Shown here: piece after piece, positions 836 through 48,425 of the stretch | Position numbering within the stretch: position 1 is the stretch's first letter | Layout of the letters: every line of letters starts with the position of its first letter | Assembly: GCA_029240815.1 (NCBI GenBank) | Contig: JARDZO010000001.1 | Span: forward strand, 1 to 64,000 | Direction: 5' to 3' | DNA length: 64,000 bases | Source: Brevibacillus sp. | GTDB lineage: Bacteria > Bacillota > Bacilli > Brevibacillales > Brevibacillaceae | The notes under the pieces: model-generated | Database searches by the model: none | What the model was told of the DNA's origin: nothing | What the model saw: the letters and a program-made list of their open reading frames with translations, nothing else | Translations under genes and position numbers: made by a program

Positions 836-1792
836 CTAGTGGCTTCCCAGCAAACCTTCCAACACCTTTTGCACTTTTACGCCGGTCTCAAACGTCACCA
901 GTCTCGCTTCTCGCCCTTCGATCGCATTCGCGAACTCATCCAGCAGATGCGCTAGGCGATCAATCAAGGGAATTTCGACTGGGACAACCGCCTCGTTGTC
1001 TTTCCCTACGAACAGATTCGTCCAGTTTTGCAGGCTGAGCGTCCCCTCTGTCCCATATATGCGATAGTCCAGATGCTCTTGGTGCGCGATGCCAGCCAAT
1101 CCGTTGATGGTAACAGGTGTCCCGTCTGCCAATCGCAGAACAGCGGATACGCCTGTCTCGCACGCTTCAGGATCTGCAGGATAATCTACCTCCGAGAGGA
1201 TGACCTCCAGATCTCCAAACAAGGCATAGGTGAGGTGTGTGAAATGAGGCAAGACTTCCCGAATGAATCCCCCCTGCTCACGACCGGAGAGCCAAGGCGT
1301 TTGCTGCCAAGGGCGTGGCCATTGATGGAAATGAGTAAGGATATCAATCCGGCGAATTTGCCCGAGCTCTTCCAGACGACGTTTCAGCTCCGGAAAGATC
1401 GCCTGATAGTACGTCGGGAAGTTCATCGCGTGTACGACTCCTGCGTCTTTCGCGGCCTGCAGCATTTCCTCCGCTTCCTCCAAGGAATTTGCCAGCGGCT
1501 TTTCGCACAGGAAATGCTTTTTGTGCGCCAGCACGTCCAGCGCAATCGCGTGATGGAATTTGGGTGGGACTGCCAAGTAGACGGCATCCAGCTCTTCATT
1601 CGAAAGCAGTTCCCGATGATCGGTATACCAAGGAACGTCTCCGGACAGCTTGGCTGCTTCTTGCGCCCGATCTGCGGACACATCGCTGATGGCCGCTATA
1701 TGAAACGTTTGATGAGTTCGGAGAGCATTCATCATCCGCTCCCCCATCACACCCGCTCCAATGACACCTATTTTATAGACTGGTTGACTCAT
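836..1792 (-). CDS. Gfo/Idh/MocA-family NAD(P)-dependent oxidoreductase
   Basis: A 318-residue cytosolic dehydrogenase of the Gfo/Idh/MocA family, which oxidises or reduces sugars, inositols and related compounds with NAD(P). The N-terminal Rossmann fold carries GVIGAGVMG at residues 9-17, and the family EKP motif is at 97-99. The second half is the alpha/beta substrate domain. Length is normal. The ATG at 1792 follows an AGGGA site. No sugar-catabolic partners sit nearby, so the substrate cannot be named. Structured repeat A1 lies about 190 bases upstream, in what should be its promoter region. Confidence 0.88.
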   Translation of the reverse strand: MSQPVYKIGVIGAGVMGERMMNALRTHQTFHIAAISDVSADRAQEAAKLSGDVPWYTDHRELLSNEELDAVYLAVPPKFHHAIALDVLAHKKHFLCEKPLANSLEEAEEMLQAAKDAGVVHAMNFPTYYQAIFPELKRRLEELGQIRRIDILTHFHQWPRPWQQTPWLSGREQGGFIREVLPHFTHLTYALFGDLEVILSEVDYPADPEACETGVSAVLRLADGTPVTINGLAGIAHQEHLDYRIYGTEGTLSLQNWTNLFVGKDNEAVVPVEIPLIDRLAHLLDEFANAIEGREARLVTFETGVKVQKVLEGLLGSH

Positions 1793-1978
1793 CTAAAAAT
1801 CCCTCGCTTCTCGTCTTCTTATTTTGACAGCTTTATGTCACTCCTTACCCCATTTCTCCATTGGTCTGAACAATCCTTGTGTGCAACCTGTTGCCGCGAA
1901 AAAAAAAAATTCACTCTCGTAGATGGATAAGAAAAACGCGGGAAGTGCACCCGAGTCCTTTTGGTAGGCGGTCGGTGA

Positions 1979-2205
1979 GGCTGTGGTGGAGGAGAGGAAA
2001 AGGGAGAAAAAGCTCCAGCTTCTTGGGTCCCCTGCTGAGGGGTCATCCCTGCACGGTTCCATGAAAAAAGAGAAACCTCGTCCAAAGTAGCCGATCAATG
2101 ACGCTTCTCAGAGGTGGACGCGTAAGACCGTGTTTCTCTTTTTTCATTCCACCTCGGGCTGGCCCCAAAGAGCTTCGCTTTTTTCTCCCTTTTCCTCGAC
2201 CAGCC
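1979..2205. repeat. structured repeat family A, copy A1
   Basis: About 227 bases forming a nested long inverted structure. Outer arm 1994-2013 pairs with 2177-2197 (20 bp with one bulged T), inner arm 2061-2076 pairs perfectly with 2132-2147 (16 bp), and CGTCC 2079-2083 pairs with GGACG 2116-2120. GGCTG at 1979 pairs with CAGCC at 2201. A second copy is at 24850-25102: unpaired stretches such as TCCTGCACGG are conserved, and the stems differ by compensating changes. No transposase or target duplication is seen. Function unknown; structured RNA or non-autonomous element are both possible. Confidence 0.85.
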
Positions 2206-2245
2206 ATAACACTTTCAAGCGCCTTCCTAATCGTTTACACGAAAA

Positions 2246-2275
2246 ACCGTCAGGGCTCACATTGACGGTCCTTTT
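2246..2275. terminator. terminator-like hairpin inside the gap
   Basis: ACCGTCA (2246-2252) pairs with TGACGGT (2263-2269). Read on the minus strand, the stem is followed by TTTTTC. No minus-strand gene lies immediately upstream, only repeat B1, so it could end a B1 transcript. Confidence 0.5.
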
Positions 2276-2351
2276 ACTGTAGCGGACATCCGAAAGTTTG
2301 TATTCATATCCGTGCAGACCTTTATAATCTCTGGATACAGATAAGATAAAG

Positions 2352-2374
2352 AGGGCCCTTTGTGAGGACCCTCT
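2352..2374 (-). terminator. duplicate copy of the symporter terminator hairpin
   Basis: 23 bases matching 22 of 23 with the hairpin at 2790-2812 (AGGGCCC arm, TGTGAGG loop region, GGACCCT arm). The two copies flank repeat B1. Confidence 0.5.
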
Positions 2375-2559
2375 TCAGAAGTGTTGAGAAACCCCATGCA
2401 TATCGGGATTTACTTTTATTTGCATGATGTTTGTGCATAAAAATCGTCGCTAGCATAAATCGTGAACGCGATTCTAAAGAGAAATATTCCTTTATTTTTT
2501 GCAACCTAGAGTGTCCCAAAAGATTTTAGGAAAGCTCGAGAAGCAGAATCAGTTCGCTA

Positions 2560-2758
2560 GAGAAGCATGTTTCCAGGCGGAGCGACTGTGGAGTCCTGCT
2601 CAGCGTAGCCATGAATCCCGAGGCAACAGAATCGCTATCTATGAATTACCTTCGTAGCTGCGCGCCGTTTTGCGATTCCCTCGGGATCATGTCGGAGCGG
2701 ACAGTCACCACTCCCTTGCAGGACGTAGCCCGGAGCGGAGAATGGAAACAGGCTTCTC
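2560..2758. repeat. structured repeat family B, copy B1
   Basis: A 199-base element closed by GAGAAGCATGTTTCC (2560-2574) pairing with 2744-2758 with one mismatch. Inside are GACTGT/ACAGTC (2584-2589 with 2701-2706), ATCCCGAGG/CCTCGGGAT (2615-2623 with 2679-2687) and GAATCGC/GCGATTC (2629-2635 with 2672-2678). The last two stems abut on the 3' side and are separated by five bases on the 5' side. Copy B2 at 48128-48328 has the same architecture with different stem sequences, and shares unpaired blocks such as AGGCGGAGCGACT. It lies just past the terminator of the downstream symporter gene. Confidence 0.88.
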
Positions 2759-2789
2759 TCACTGTAGCCACTATCTCGACAGCCTGAAA

Positions 2790-2812
2790 AGGGCCCTCTG
2801 TGAGGACCCTCT
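2790..2812 (-). terminator. terminator of the DAACS symporter gene
   Basis: On the minus strand, AGGGTCC and GGGCCCT form a stem followed by TTTT, 12 bases past the symporter stop. Confidence 0.65.
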
Positions 2813-2823
2813 CCTTTCACTCA

Positions 2824-4065
2824 TCAAGCTGAAGCTGATTGACTTTGCGCAGGCTCCGTATCTTTCCGGAATACTCCTTCCCATTTCGCCACAGCGATGC
2901 AGGAAAAGACATGTCCAAAGACGTTGACTGCTGTACGTGCCATATCGATGACGCGGTCGATACCGATGATCAGAGCGACACCTTCAGGCGGCAAGCCTAC
3001 TGCGGTAACAGTCGCCAGCAAGATGACCATAGACGAAGATGGCACCGCTGCGACACCTTTACTCGTCACGATGAAAAAGAGCACCATCATCAGCTGTTGC
3101 TGCCACGACATGTCGATGCCAAAGGCCTGGGCGATAAACGGCCCTGCAATCGTCAAGTAAAGGGTGGTTCCATCGGAATTGAGCGGCATGCCAGCAGGGA
3201 TGACGAACGAGGTGATGTACTTGGGTACGCCGTACTTTTCCAATCGTTGCATCAGCTGTGGCACGACGGTCTCCGTGCTTCCCGTAGAAGCGCCGACAAT
3301 CATCAGATCCCACACCATTTTATAGATTTCTTTAATCGGAACTCGGAGGAATAGAGCGACGAGAGAAAAGAGTCCAAACACAACGACTGCCAAACCGAGG
3401 TAAGCGGTACCAATTAATTTCAGGAGTGGAACGATCAATGCGATTCCGTATGTGCCAATGGTATTGGACATCAAGGCAAACACACCGATGGGAGCCGTCA
3501 GCATGACCATGTTCACGAGCTGGAAGGAGGCTTTGGAGGCAATCTCCAGCATGGTCACAAACGGTTTGGCTTCATTGCCTAGCTTGACTAGCGCTACTCC
3601 GAACAACATACAGAAGAAAATAACAGCCAGCAAATCATTCTTCGCCATCACATCGACGATATTGGTAGGGATGATATGAAGCAACAGCGTTTTGCCATCG
3701 AGAACGGTCGAGGTATTGGATGCGACCGTAGTTAAATCTGCCTGGGGAAGATTCGTGAGATCAATTCCTTTCCCTGGCTTCACCAGATTGGCGATGGCGA
3801 GCCCGATAAACAAAATCAGCGTGGTAATGAGCTCAAACCAAATGACCGTCTTAATCCCGATTCGTCCCATCCGTTTGATGTCACCGATACCCGCGATGCC
3901 GACGAGCAAGGTCGTGACGATGACCGGTATGACAATCATTTTGAGCAAGCGGATAAACGCATCACCGAGAAATTTGATATCCTTACCGAGCTCTGGAAAA
4001 AAATGACCAAAGGCTGCACCCAGCACTGTAGCACCTAAGATGTAAAACGCAAACTTAGTCTTCAT
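2824..4065 (-). CDS. dicarboxylate/amino acid:cation symporter (DAACS family)
   Basis: A 413-residue integral membrane transporter of the GltP/GltT/DctA family, which imports glutamate, aspartate or C4-dicarboxylates with protons or sodium. It has about eight hydrophobic segments plus re-entrant hairpins, with the family's serine-rich loop (GASTGSTETVVP) and the substrate-site region near IIGIDRVIDMARTAVNV. The frame is open further upstream, but ATG 4065 has a GGGGGA ribosome site and matches the usual N-terminus. It is divergent from the aminotransferase at 4164, with a large inverted repeat between them, suggesting import and transamination of one amino acid under the RpiR regulator at 5597. 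A paralogue is at 29792. Confidence 0.92.
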   Translation of the reverse strand: MKTKFAFYILGATVLGAAFGHFFPELGKDIKFLGDAFIRLLKMIVIPVIVTTLLVGIAGIGDIKRMGRIGIKTVIWFELITTLILFIGLAIANLVKPGKGIDLTNLPQADLTTVASNTSTVLDGKTLLLHIIPTNIVDVMAKNDLLAVIFFCMLFGVALVKLGNEAKPFVTMLEIASKASFQLVNMVMLTAPIGVFALMSNTIGTYGIALIVPLLKLIGTAYLGLAVVVFGLFSLVALFLRVPIKEIYKMVWDLMIVGASTGSTETVVPQLMQRLEKYGVPKYITSFVIPAGMPLNSDGTTLYLTIAGPFIAQAFGIDMSWQQQLMMVLFFIVTSKGVAAVPSSSMVILLATVTAVGLPPEGVALIIGIDRVIDMARTAVNVFGHVFSCIAVAKWEGVFRKDTEPAQSQSASA

Positions 4066-4097
4066 AATATTCCCCCTGTTCGTAAAATTCATAGGCA

Positions 4098-4144
4098 TGA
4101 AATGATTATTGCAAATTACAAAGGTCCATGCAATAATAATTTCA
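4098..4144. promoter_or_regulatory. large inverted repeat in the divergent promoter region
   Basis: The 16-base arms at 4098-4113 (TGAAATGATTATTGCA) and 4129-4144 (TGCAATAATAATTTCA) are complementary at 15 of 16 positions, with a 15-base spacer. The site lies between the symporter and aminotransferase starts, where a regulator could control both. RpiR-type regulators bind TGAAA-type dyads, and one is encoded at 5597, so it is the likely binder (inference). Confidence 0.7.
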
Positions 4145-4163
4145 CAAACAAGGAGGTAATGAA

Positions 4164-5522
4164 ATGAAAATTTCATCGTTGCAAACTACCTTTCAGAAGA
4201 CTCGACCAAACTCTGCGGCTTTTTTCGAGCGCGCTAAGCATACGATTTCCGGTGGCGTAAACGGCAACCTGCGCTACTTTGCACCGTTTCCGATCATTTT
4301 TGAAAAAGCGGAAGCTGCCAGCCTGATCGATCTGGACGGTCACCGTTATGTCGACTATTTGCTGTCCTATGGCGCTCTGATGCTCGGACATGCACATCCG
4401 GAGGTACTGAAAGCGACCCAAAAGGTGTGGGACGAGCAAGGTACGAGCAGCTTTGGAGCCACTCATCCGCTGGAAATGGAAATGACAGACGAGCTTCTGG
4501 AGCTGTACCCGAGCTTTGATCAAGTACGTTTTACGAACTCCGGACTGGAAGCGACACTCTTTGCGCTGCGCCTCGCAACGGCGTATACCGGCAAATCCCA
4601 CATCGCCAAATTTGAAGGACACTATCACGGCGCACACGACCATGTTCTGCAGAGCGTAAACCCAACTGCAGACCTCGCTGGCACGACCCATTCGCCGCAA
4701 GCGGTGCCTGAATCCCTCGGGACTCCTGACTACTACCGCAATCACAGTGTCATCCTGCCCTTTAATGACTGGGATGCCTGCGAGCGCATTTTGACAGAAA
4801 AAGCAGACCACATTTCGTCTGTGATCATGGAGCCGATGCTCTCCGGCTATATTGCTGCCAATCGCACGTTTATGAAAAATCTGCGTGAGCTCACCACTCA
4901 ATTGGGCATCCTTCTTATTTTTGACGAAGTGAAAACGGGTTTCCGCATCGAGGTAGGAGGCGCACAAGCCTTTTACGGCGTCGAGCCTGATTTGACCGCT
5001 CTGGGGAAAGTAGTGGGCGGCGGCTTCCCAATCGGAGTCGTCGGGGGAAAACGTTCCATCATGGAGCTGTCCTCCCCGCTCCGTTCCAGCAAAAAATCGG
5101 AGGTCGTCTTCCACAGCGGGACATTCAACGGCAATCCTTTGTCCATTGCCGCTGGTCTTGCTACGATCCGTTACTTGAAACAGCCCGGAAATTTTGCGCA
5201 GCTCGTCGCAAACACCAACGAGCTGCGCGCCGGTATCGACGCACTTGCCAAGCAATATGACCTGCCTTTCCAAACGCTCGGTGAAGGTAGCATCTTTAAT
5301 GTCTTGGCGACGCACGCACCTGTCGGCCATTATCGTGATCTCGGCCACAACAACAATCAGCTGCGACTCGCTCTCGACTACTTGCTGATGGAAAATGGCG
5401 TCTACTCCAAACCGATGAACCGTTTCTCGATGTCCGCCGCACACGGTCCGGCCGAGATCAAAGCGACATTGGATGCCTTTGAAAAAAGCATGGCAGCTCT
5501 CAAACAAGATCCCCTTGTGTAA
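4164..5522 (+). CDS. class-III PLP aminotransferase, glutamate-1-semialdehyde-aminomutase-like
   Basis: A 452-residue cytosolic PLP enzyme of aminotransferase class III. GGVNGNLRYF and the HYHGAHD segment (near 153-159) resemble glutamate-1-semialdehyde 2,1-aminomutase. The cofactor aspartate lies in FDEVKTGFR (253-261), and Lys282 in TALGKVVGGG should bind PLP. It is not next to heme genes; it is divergent from an amino-acid/dicarboxylate symporter and followed by an RpiR regulator. A catabolic amino-acid aminotransferase or racemase is therefore more likely than heme synthesis. ATG 4164 has an AAGGAGG site. A 474-residue antisense frame over this gene is an artefact of its codon bias. Confidence 0.85.
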   Translation: MKISSLQTTFQKTRPNSAAFFERAKHTISGGVNGNLRYFAPFPIIFEKAEAASLIDLDGHRYVDYLLSYGALMLGHAHPEVLKATQKVWDEQGTSSFGATHPLEMEMTDELLELYPSFDQVRFTNSGLEATLFALRLATAYTGKSHIAKFEGHYHGAHDHVLQSVNPTADLAGTTHSPQAVPESLGTPDYYRNHSVILPFNDWDACERILTEKADHISSVIMEPMLSGYIAANRTFMKNLRELTTQLGILLIFDEVKTGFRIEVGGAQAFYGVEPDLTALGKVVGGGFPIGVVGGKRSIMELSSPLRSSKKSEVVFHSGTFNGNPLSIAAGLATIRYLKQPGNFAQLVANTNELRAGIDALAKQYDLPFQTLGEGSIFNVLATHAPVGHYRDLGHNNNQLRLALDYLLMENGVYSKPMNRFSMSAAHGPAEIKATLDAFEKSMAALKQDPLV

Positions 5523-24849: not shown

Positions 24850-25102
24850 TGGCTATTGCGAGTAGAAGGAACAATGTGGAGGAGCGGAAAAAGGGGAAAA
24901 CGCTCCAGGTTAGTAGGGACACTCGCGCGGGGGTCATTCCTGCACGGCTCCGCTCCAAAAACGGAACCGCGTCCAAAAGTAGATCTGGCGAGGAAGTATC
25001 TCAGAGGTTGGACGCTAACAGCCTGTTCCGTTTTTTCCTCTTCGCCTCGGTTGTGTCCCTAATACCTTCGCTTTTTTCCCCTTTTTCCTGGACAGCTAGC
25101 CA
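24850..25102. repeat. structured repeat family A, copy A2
   Basis: Second copy of the element at 1979-2205. Outer arm 24886-24900 pairs perfectly with 25074-25088 (15 bp), inner arm 24957-24967 pairs perfectly with 25025-25035 (11 bp), TAGGGACAC 24914-24922 pairs with GTGTCCCTA 25053-25061, and TGGCTA/TAGCCA closes the ends. Stem sequences differ from A1 but stay paired; stretches such as GGGGTCAT, CCTGCACGG and CTCAGAGGT are shared. It fills most of the 449-base gap between the Rrf2 and quinone reductase genes; nothing else is seen there. Confidence 0.85.
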
Positions 25103-47872: not shown

Positions 47873-48127
47873 TTGCTTTTTATATTTCCTTGGATAGTTG
47901 CCTTGGGTGGGAGAAGAATGTTTCAGGAGGGTTACGATAAGATTTCAAAAGATGAATACCATCAATACCACTTCCCTGTTTCTACCGAAGTAAACCCTCA
48001 TAGTACTCCTGTTCTTAAGTCAAACGATGATGGCTGAGCAGAATACCCTTCGAAGCCGAGCGATTGGGAAAGAACCTTACTGTCATAAATCTCCGAAAAA
48101 AAGTGCTAGAAACCACAAAAGCTCGCA

Positions 48128-48328
48128 GGAGAAGCAGGTTTCCAGGCGGAGCGACTTCGGAACCCAACCTAGCGTAGCAACGAATTCACGGGATCAAGAA
48201 GCGGTACCTCTGAGTTCACAGCGAAGCGGCTACTACTTTACCGCTTCCCCGTGAATCGTTGCGGAGCGGACAGTCTATTCTTCTTCGCAGGGTGTAGACC
48301 GGAGCACAGATCGGAAACCTGCTTCTCC
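48128..48328. repeat. structured repeat family B, copy B2
   Basis: 201 bases closed by a perfect 16-bp stem (48128-48143 with 48313-48328). Inside: GACT/AGTC (48153-48156 with 48272-48275), TTCACGGG/CCCGTGAA (48185-48192 with 48248-48255) and GAAGCGGTA/TACCGCTTC (48198-48206 with 48239-48247). The last two stems abut on the 3' side and have five bases between them on the 5' side, exactly as in B1. It lies in the 684-base gap upstream of anmK and beyond the aldo-keto reductase terminator. The rest of that gap (47873-48127) shows nothing recognisable. Confidence 0.88.
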
Positions 48329-48381
48329 TCCCCTCAGCTAAGTTGGTATCACGATGCATTTTTCATTTTGCTATCGGTTCA

Positions 48382-48425
48382 AAAAAAATGCCCCACCAGC
48401 AGTACCTTCTGCTGATGAGACACTC
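48382..48425 (-). terminator. terminator of the aldo-keto reductase gene
   Basis: CACCAGCAG (48394-48402) pairs with CTGCTGATG (48409-48417, one G-T pair). T8 follows on the minus strand. Confidence 0.82.

Follow-up and report, generated by a model that had tools for sequence, protein, structure and literature searches.

A high-copy family of covarying hairpin modules at transcription terminators of Brevibacillus with the features of mobile DNA

Introduction

Elements of the IS200/IS605 and REP/RAYT types have folded ends and a strand preference at the replication fork; to our knowledge, their mechanism makes no target duplication. Group IIC introns insert next to terminators. In Bacilli, bcr1 is a dispersed, mobile-like structured repeat. 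The list of repeats in PMC2267715 places it in the Bacillus cereus group with a length of 147–167 bp. Bacterial MITEs, as the relevant part of PMC10969869 portrays them (QMITE2 of C. burnetii and BOX, RUP and SPRITE of pneumococcus), are short, non-coding, intergenic and multi-copy, and have terminal inverted repeats, a target duplication and a stable stem-loop. IS1272 and TnSha1, of the IS1182 family, target hairpins, many of them terminators, with no sequence consensus. For IS1272, the section on insertion in PMC4923244 gives a blunt cut, deletion of part of the stem-loop, no target duplication and no orientation bias.

We analysed a 64,000-nt stretch of Brevibacillus sp. DNA (GenBank assembly GCA_029240815.1, contig JARDZO010000001.1, positions 1 to 64,000), referred to here as the window. 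A preliminary description had recognized an element of about 200 nt present twice, which it interpreted as a selected RNA and called Family B, and had kept it apart from a second repeat, Family A. These repeats are termed here module B, with window copies B1 and B2, and module A. Module B belongs to a high-copy mobile DNA family and is not a two-copy RNA gene. It is probably the structured portion of a MITE-like mobile DNA element that is non-autonomous and inserts at intrinsic terminators.

As a kind, the element is MITE-like, and the MITE traits listed in that source are common to B elements. Its distinguishing traits are the hairpin-length duplication, the module's size and covariation, and fork polarity. 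Unlike in the MITEs of that source, an entire terminator hairpin is duplicated and its length varies, the module is a covarying one of 200 nt, composite A-B or B-B units occur, and one group has a strict orientation to the fork. Hairpins or terminators are the target for B as for IS1272, but B is flanked by two full copies of the hairpin and has different ends from IS1272. The likeness to bcr1, drawn from its listed description alone, is that of a dispersed, mobile-like structured repeat of Bacilli; the size differs. Folded ends and a fork strand preference are shared with IS200/IS605 and REP/RAYT, but Y1 genes are not regularly beside the modules and a target duplication is present. Terminator-adjacent insertion is shared with group IIC introns, but solo B units are only ~250 nt and the target is duplicated. 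No Rfam match to group IIC domain V or to a ribozyme family was obtained in the window, at three related loci or, at a relaxed threshold, in one composite copy.

Results

Copies of modules A and B in the window

The following features were located in the window.

48128–48327, + (as-given) strand: B2, a module B, an imperfect covarying hairpin of ~200 nt
47926–48127, no strand: left part of the B2 unit, a spacer and a degenerate B-like module (by eye)
47926–48381: stretch of 456 nt absent from a relative at the B2 locus (L087)
48389–48424 (approximate), − strand: intrinsic terminator of the minus-strand aldo/keto reductase gene, beside the 3' end of B2 (by eye)
2559/2560–2758, + strand: B1, a module B
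2375–2786, + strand: B1 unit, between two copies of one terminator-like hairpin
2349–2374: left copy of the duplicated hairpin at B1, 92% identical to the right copy
2787–2812: right copy of that hairpin, behind the dicarboxylate symporter gene at 2824–4176
1994–2197, + strand: module A, which in related genomes precedes B within composite A-B units
24885–25089, + strand: second window copy of module A

The coordinates first proposed for B1 and B2 were right within a base, and the common orientation and architecture of the two copies and their position beside terminators were all borne out. The minus-strand gene beside the 3' end of B2 was named aldo/keto reductase by gene-family assignment. 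By eye, the outer end of the degenerate B-like module, GGGTGGGAGAAGAATGTTTC, mirrors the right end of the B2 unit, and the B1 unit ends in an imperfect terminal inverted repeat, TTCAGAAGTGTTGAGAAA / TTCAGGCTGTCGAGATA. A B profile search of the window found no B adjoining the module A copy at 24885–25089. The closest relative compared with the window is 85–86% identical over two stretches. At the B2 locus, the relative (G015, locus L087) has an apparent deletion relic that retains both unit ends (by eye), hence no clean empty site.

Folding and covariation of module B

B2 folded better than 200/200 shuffles on both strands, whether as RNA (z −4.9 and −4.0) or as DNA (z −5.7 and −5.4), and B1 also folded better than 200/200 shuffles as RNA (z −2.9). 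As had been described, the outer stem is nearly or fully paired (15/15 pairs in B2 and 14/15 in B1, by eye) and both inner stems pair perfectly in B1 and B2 (by eye). These two stems adjoin directly at the 3' side; at the 5' side they are separated by five bases, a gap retained in 69 of 70 aligned copies.

Covariation was measured on an alignment of 70 of the 71 unique rows, the omitted row having a loop insertion. Paired states fill 97.1% of cells, two-sided changes occur at 30 of 46 pairs, and the covariation score is 0.410, compared with 0.150 ± 0.006 for shuffled and at most 0.078 for slid alignments. All five covariation measures exceed those of 500/500 shuffles. The compensating changes that had been noticed between two copies are true covariation by this statistical test. 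The GACT/AGTC stem of the preliminary description was not substantiated, as all four pairs form in only 43/70 copies and covariation is equal to the shuffle level.

The blocks previously described as unpaired are indeed conserved, but they contain CGNAG motifs that partly face one another across the stem. GNA lies opposite GNA at columns 49–51/145–147 in 58 of 70 copies, and these facing trinucleotides would form stacked G.A-type internal loops. The DNA d(GCGNAGC) is a very stable mini-hairpin. CGNAG occurs 5.7 times per copy on the as-given strand, compared with 1.7 times on its complement and 1.4 times after block shuffling. At several of the eight recurring positions N varies while the other four letters are constant.

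To count wobble pairs, 145 rows were reduced to 82 rows below 85% identity. On the as-given strand G.T fills 72 and A.C 33 of 3526 cells, at 25 and 14 sites, respectively. Functional RNAs are usually richer in G.U, which makes DNA-level pairing no less likely than pairing in RNA. The module B consensus has nearly equal energy on the two strands (−69.5 and −69.7, 82 copies), and module A folds better on the other strand than on the as-given strand. Pairing that is nearly pure Watson-Crick and strands that fold alike are no less consistent with a fold in DNA than with one in RNA.

Family size and composite units

A gapped pattern search found 16 stretches in a species-level genome collection, of which 12 were in named Brevibacillus records, and the genomes behind these loci were the starting set for a blastn survey. 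Module B was present in 25 of 26 Brevibacillus genomes by blastn. The covariance-model genome search that the preliminary description had proposed was run with a model of 70 copies. Across the order it detected B in 36 of 39 genomes and not in the other three. G021 gave no blastn match and eight model matches (best 3.8e-17). Model matches were often close to 64 per genome, a number that is a lower bound. One genome had 105 and another 74; some of these are weak matches to the reverse strand of copies already counted, and the 105 matches occupy at least 67 distinct places. Both window copies are real, but "present twice" does not describe a family with many copies per genome.

The separation of Family B from Family A was incomplete. 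In related genomes, 62 of 147 B copies have a module A on the same strand no more than 150 nt upstream, mostly at a distance of 76–81 nt. Tandem arrays were seen of A-B units and of either module alone. In G023 many copies form inverted pairs around spacers of 0.1–2.4 kb, and in a few cases a small gene or an IS is located in the spacer. The cargo of one B pair is an IS605-like element with tnpA- and tnpB-like ORFs. The spacers at L242, L246, L069, L244, L245 and L243 contain in some cases ORFs judged by eye to encode lipoprotein-like or small membrane proteins, an ISL3 transposase or an element resembling IS605, as if paired modules might frame cargo. The unit takes three forms: B with ~29 nt on each side (~250 nt), A-linker-B, and two inverted B modules around a spacer. 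Genes around the copies were called with a script based on the codon usage of the window, and none of the 147 full-length copies lies inside a called gene.

Insertion at terminators

Behind a gene named mutY by eye from its protein, G026 carries B and the orthologous site in G009 is empty. Positions 1–1472 of the filled site align with 1152–2623 of the empty site (95.7%) and 1724–3198 with 2598–4057 (88.0%). The insert is 251 nt, and the 26-bp overlap consists of the gene end, stop and terminator hairpin. This is the only clean empty/filled pair, and a precise deletion between the 26-bp repeats could also produce it. An A-B unit near mutY was occupied in 9/9 genomes compared, with no empty site.

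Duplicated hairpins were sought around 30 of the 81 model matches in G009 and G026, those with loci given. Matching terminator hairpins flank 24 of the 30 copies at a score of at least 16; control scores have a median of 8, 95th and 99th percentiles of 13.5 and 20.5, and a maximum of 27.5. Among the six copies below 16, L273 was clear in a separate comparison, four have weaker pairs and one has none. The duplication is of variable length, roughly 20–36 nt in the listed cases. Hairpin sequences differ between copies, and in several the arms match better than the loops, as is seen for the duplicated terminators at L265, L268, L269 and L271. At L272 and L287 the flanking hairpins look reverse-complementary instead of direct copies, as if one had flipped.

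The comparison was widened to 192 flanked copies from many genomes. A strong hairpin (arm of at least 7) was found in 45, with a median start at +30. It was duplicated upstream in 12/45 compared with 1/45 controls, and 33/45 had no duplicate at this cut-off. The window copy B1 is among the 12, which come mostly from the G009/G026 clade and among which no A-B unit was seen. Hairpin duplication is thus established for one clade and B1, and not for the A-B group. At B2 a terminator lies alongside and a duplicate hairpin was not found.

In the G009/G026 clade, CAGnnTGnAGACAAA occurs at both ends as an imperfect terminal inverted repeat, similar by eye to the B1 ends. The element ends read CAGACTGAAGACAAA and CAGTGTGTAGACAAA. 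The terminal-repeat pattern matched 38 times in G009, 12 in G026 and 2 in G019, compared with 0, 0 and 1 for the reversed control, and 33 of the 38 G009 matches are within 130 nt of a listed B match.

Conservation at orthologous sites

One A-B site, the one occupied in all nine genomes compared, was aligned from six of the nine loci, omitting one double unit and two loci with partial B. Module A is 95.1% and module B 94.8% identical, compared with 76.9% for the linker and 79.5% for the next 30 nt. DNA 600–900 nt upstream, taken as coding from its conservation, is 95.3% identical. Among 82 orthologous locus pairs, 38 have a single full-length B on both sides; over these pairs, some of which represent one site twice so that not all are independent, B is 95.2% identical compared with 79.9% for the 60 nt upstream. 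The B identity exceeds that expected of a decaying MITE. The copies are therefore not decaying like dead MITEs, and selection or concerted evolution may hold them. Paralogues in the same genome reach 94.2% at best and 91.8% on average, and the orthologue was closer in 23 of 38 cases. Because paralogues nearly match orthologues, the uniformity of the copies may be due to gene conversion or to a recent expansion.

Orientation relative to the replication fork

Orientation was determined in six related genomes (G008, G011, G012, G013, G024 and G025), each with one main contig of 6.2–6.7 Mb, after the origin was placed by dnaA. The as-given strand runs against the fork in 119/119 listed high-scoring copies and, with copies grouped into sites at 5 kb, at 86/86 sites. 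A single apparent exception in G008 disappeared after origin placement. Because sites are common to them, the six genomes are not independent; G013 alone has 21/21 sites against the fork. The counts for these six genomes and for G023 cover high-scoring listed copies and omit one low-scoring row of G013 and the seven lowest of G023. With that row restored, lower-scoring copies of G013 gave 25/33. Elsewhere polarity is weak or absent (25/55 for the paired units of G023, 5/7 in G016, 1/4 in G014, 1/2 in G007 and 3/3 in G015).

The downstream gene is antiparallel to B in 98 of 147 copies and parallel in 32, with none called in 17. Gene direction is not the cause of the polarity, since genes adjoining B are mixed and copies are 119/119 in one direction.

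In the six genomes, roughly the initial seventh of either arm, counted from the origin, has none of the listed high-scoring copies. In most of the six, the terminus half of the arms has fewer of them than the origin half.

Search for an enzyme partner

A Y1 transposase was rejected as partner on current evidence, as only one of 30 Y1 loci examined has a partial A nearby. IS1595, hinted at by one spacer, was also rejected with three matches in 2/26 genomes, one of them being that spacer. Seven loci have terminal repeats unmatched by a listed B; three retain a weak partial B match, and at three unmatched-repeat loci no transposase was seen among listed ORFs of at least 150 aa. No autonomous element with matching ends was found by the Y1, IS1595 and terminal-repeat pattern searches or at the loci inspected.

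In B. panacihumi W25, six near-identical IS1182-family elements of 1.96–1.97 kb (NF033551; L047–L052) lie at terminator-like hairpins and hold B between the transposase start and one end. When rejoined, the six sites fold as hairpins with energies from −11 to −27 kcal/mol; one hairpin is weak, and three of the six sites have an exact 8–9 bp duplication. The ends of the one IS1182 element compared, AGAGCCCTGCAAAATCC, are unlike the B ends, CAGnnTG... IS1182 is accordingly a carrier for the six W25 copies, in which B is hitchhiking, and was rejected as a general one. An IS1182-like enzyme is nevertheless the first candidate, because IS1272 targets terminator hairpins and the W25 element carries B.

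The view that B is not a known RNA family held, with no Rfam match in the window at gathering score. One composite copy gave four matches at a relaxed threshold, all far below gathering score, and three related loci gave nothing except tmRNA beside one IS copy. Phage and plasmid records gave no blastn match to B2, and viral contigs no match to one exact gapped pattern. Integron attC-like arrays and SpoIIIE/KOPS-like polar sites were set aside on inspection by eye.

Discussion

By comparison with MITEs, terminal inverted repeats are present, and a target duplication was found at the empty site (26 bp) and around 24/30 copies but was not seen for A-B units. The reading of B as a selected RNA element gives way, for the most part, to mobile DNA: an empty site with a duplication, inverted repeats, duplicated hairpins at 24/30 copies and carriage within an IS1182-family element all point that way. 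A free-standing, multi-copy structured non-coding RNA is improbable. It would account for the strong covariation, for the excess of G.T over A.C on the as-given strand (72 and 33 cells, 25 and 14 sites) and for the concentration of CGNAG on that strand (5.7 and 1.7 per copy). At one site the unit also lies, by eye, between a gene end and a terminator-like hairpin of the same direction, and so may be co-transcribed. However, G.T fills only 2% of cells, the B strands fold equally and A folds better on the other strand, no promoter-like sequence is common to the flanks outside the unit (by eye), as-given RNA would oppose the fork in 119/119 listed copies of six genomes, and there are an empty site and a target duplication. 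Neutral palindromic repeats, whose arms are matched by template switching or gene conversion with no selection on the fold, are also improbable. The family is quasi-palindromic, forms tandem arrays and has few wobble pairs, but the five-base bulge is kept in 69/70 copies and four letters of CGNAG stay constant while N varies; template switching should erase both the bulge and the GNA/GNA loops.

A third alternative is that the elements were formerly mobile and now serve the host, with A and B acting at gene ends or forks, for example as insulating or polar one-strand structures. We consider this rather unlikely, although several observations favor it. At one site A (95.1%) and B (94.8%) are about as conserved as the upstream DNA (95.3%) and far more so than the linker (76.9%) or the next 30 nt (79.5%). 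The same holds for B and the 60 nt upstream over the 38 pairs, not all independent (95.2% compared with 79.9%), and all 119 listed copies in six related genomes oppose the fork. Against it, copies within a genome resemble one another almost as closely as orthologues do (94.2% for the best paralogue and 91.8% on average, with the orthologue closer in 23/38), G021 has no blastn match and eight model matches (best 3.8e-17), and three genomes of the order have no B.

For a MITE-like mobile element, the following steps can be envisaged. Insertion would take place at an intrinsic transcription terminator; in one clade the whole stem-loop is indeed present on both sides. Because a terminator remains on each flank, neighboring genes would stay insulated. 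An enzyme acting in trans would recognize the folded ends and may cut at the foot of a target hairpin that is extruded, whether as a single strand or as a cruciform. With cuts there, the duplication would have the length of the hairpin and no fixed size. Insertion, or else survival, may be tied to one fork strand in the lineage whose A-B units are asymmetric. Covariation may be retained either since the DNA fold serves movement or since the copies serve the host. We tentatively propose, as a possibility short of an even chance, that transposition is guided by target shape: the two feet of the terminator hairpin would be cut, the hairpin itself would become the duplication, termination would be kept on both sides, and one lineage would insert on one fork strand only. 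No description of hairpin-duplicating transposition or of this family was found in the open literature searched, outside of which most subscription journals lie.

If this reading is right, a mobile DNA family can yield covariation of the sort normally read as a sign of functional RNA, so RNA discovery screens may be gathering such elements. If the proposed mechanism is true, the family would be a natural, high-copy record of structure-directed DNA insertion in which the target is carried along as a duplicated hairpin. A strand- or fork-linked step would become testable. It would also suggest how a parasite occupies gene ends without breaking termination.
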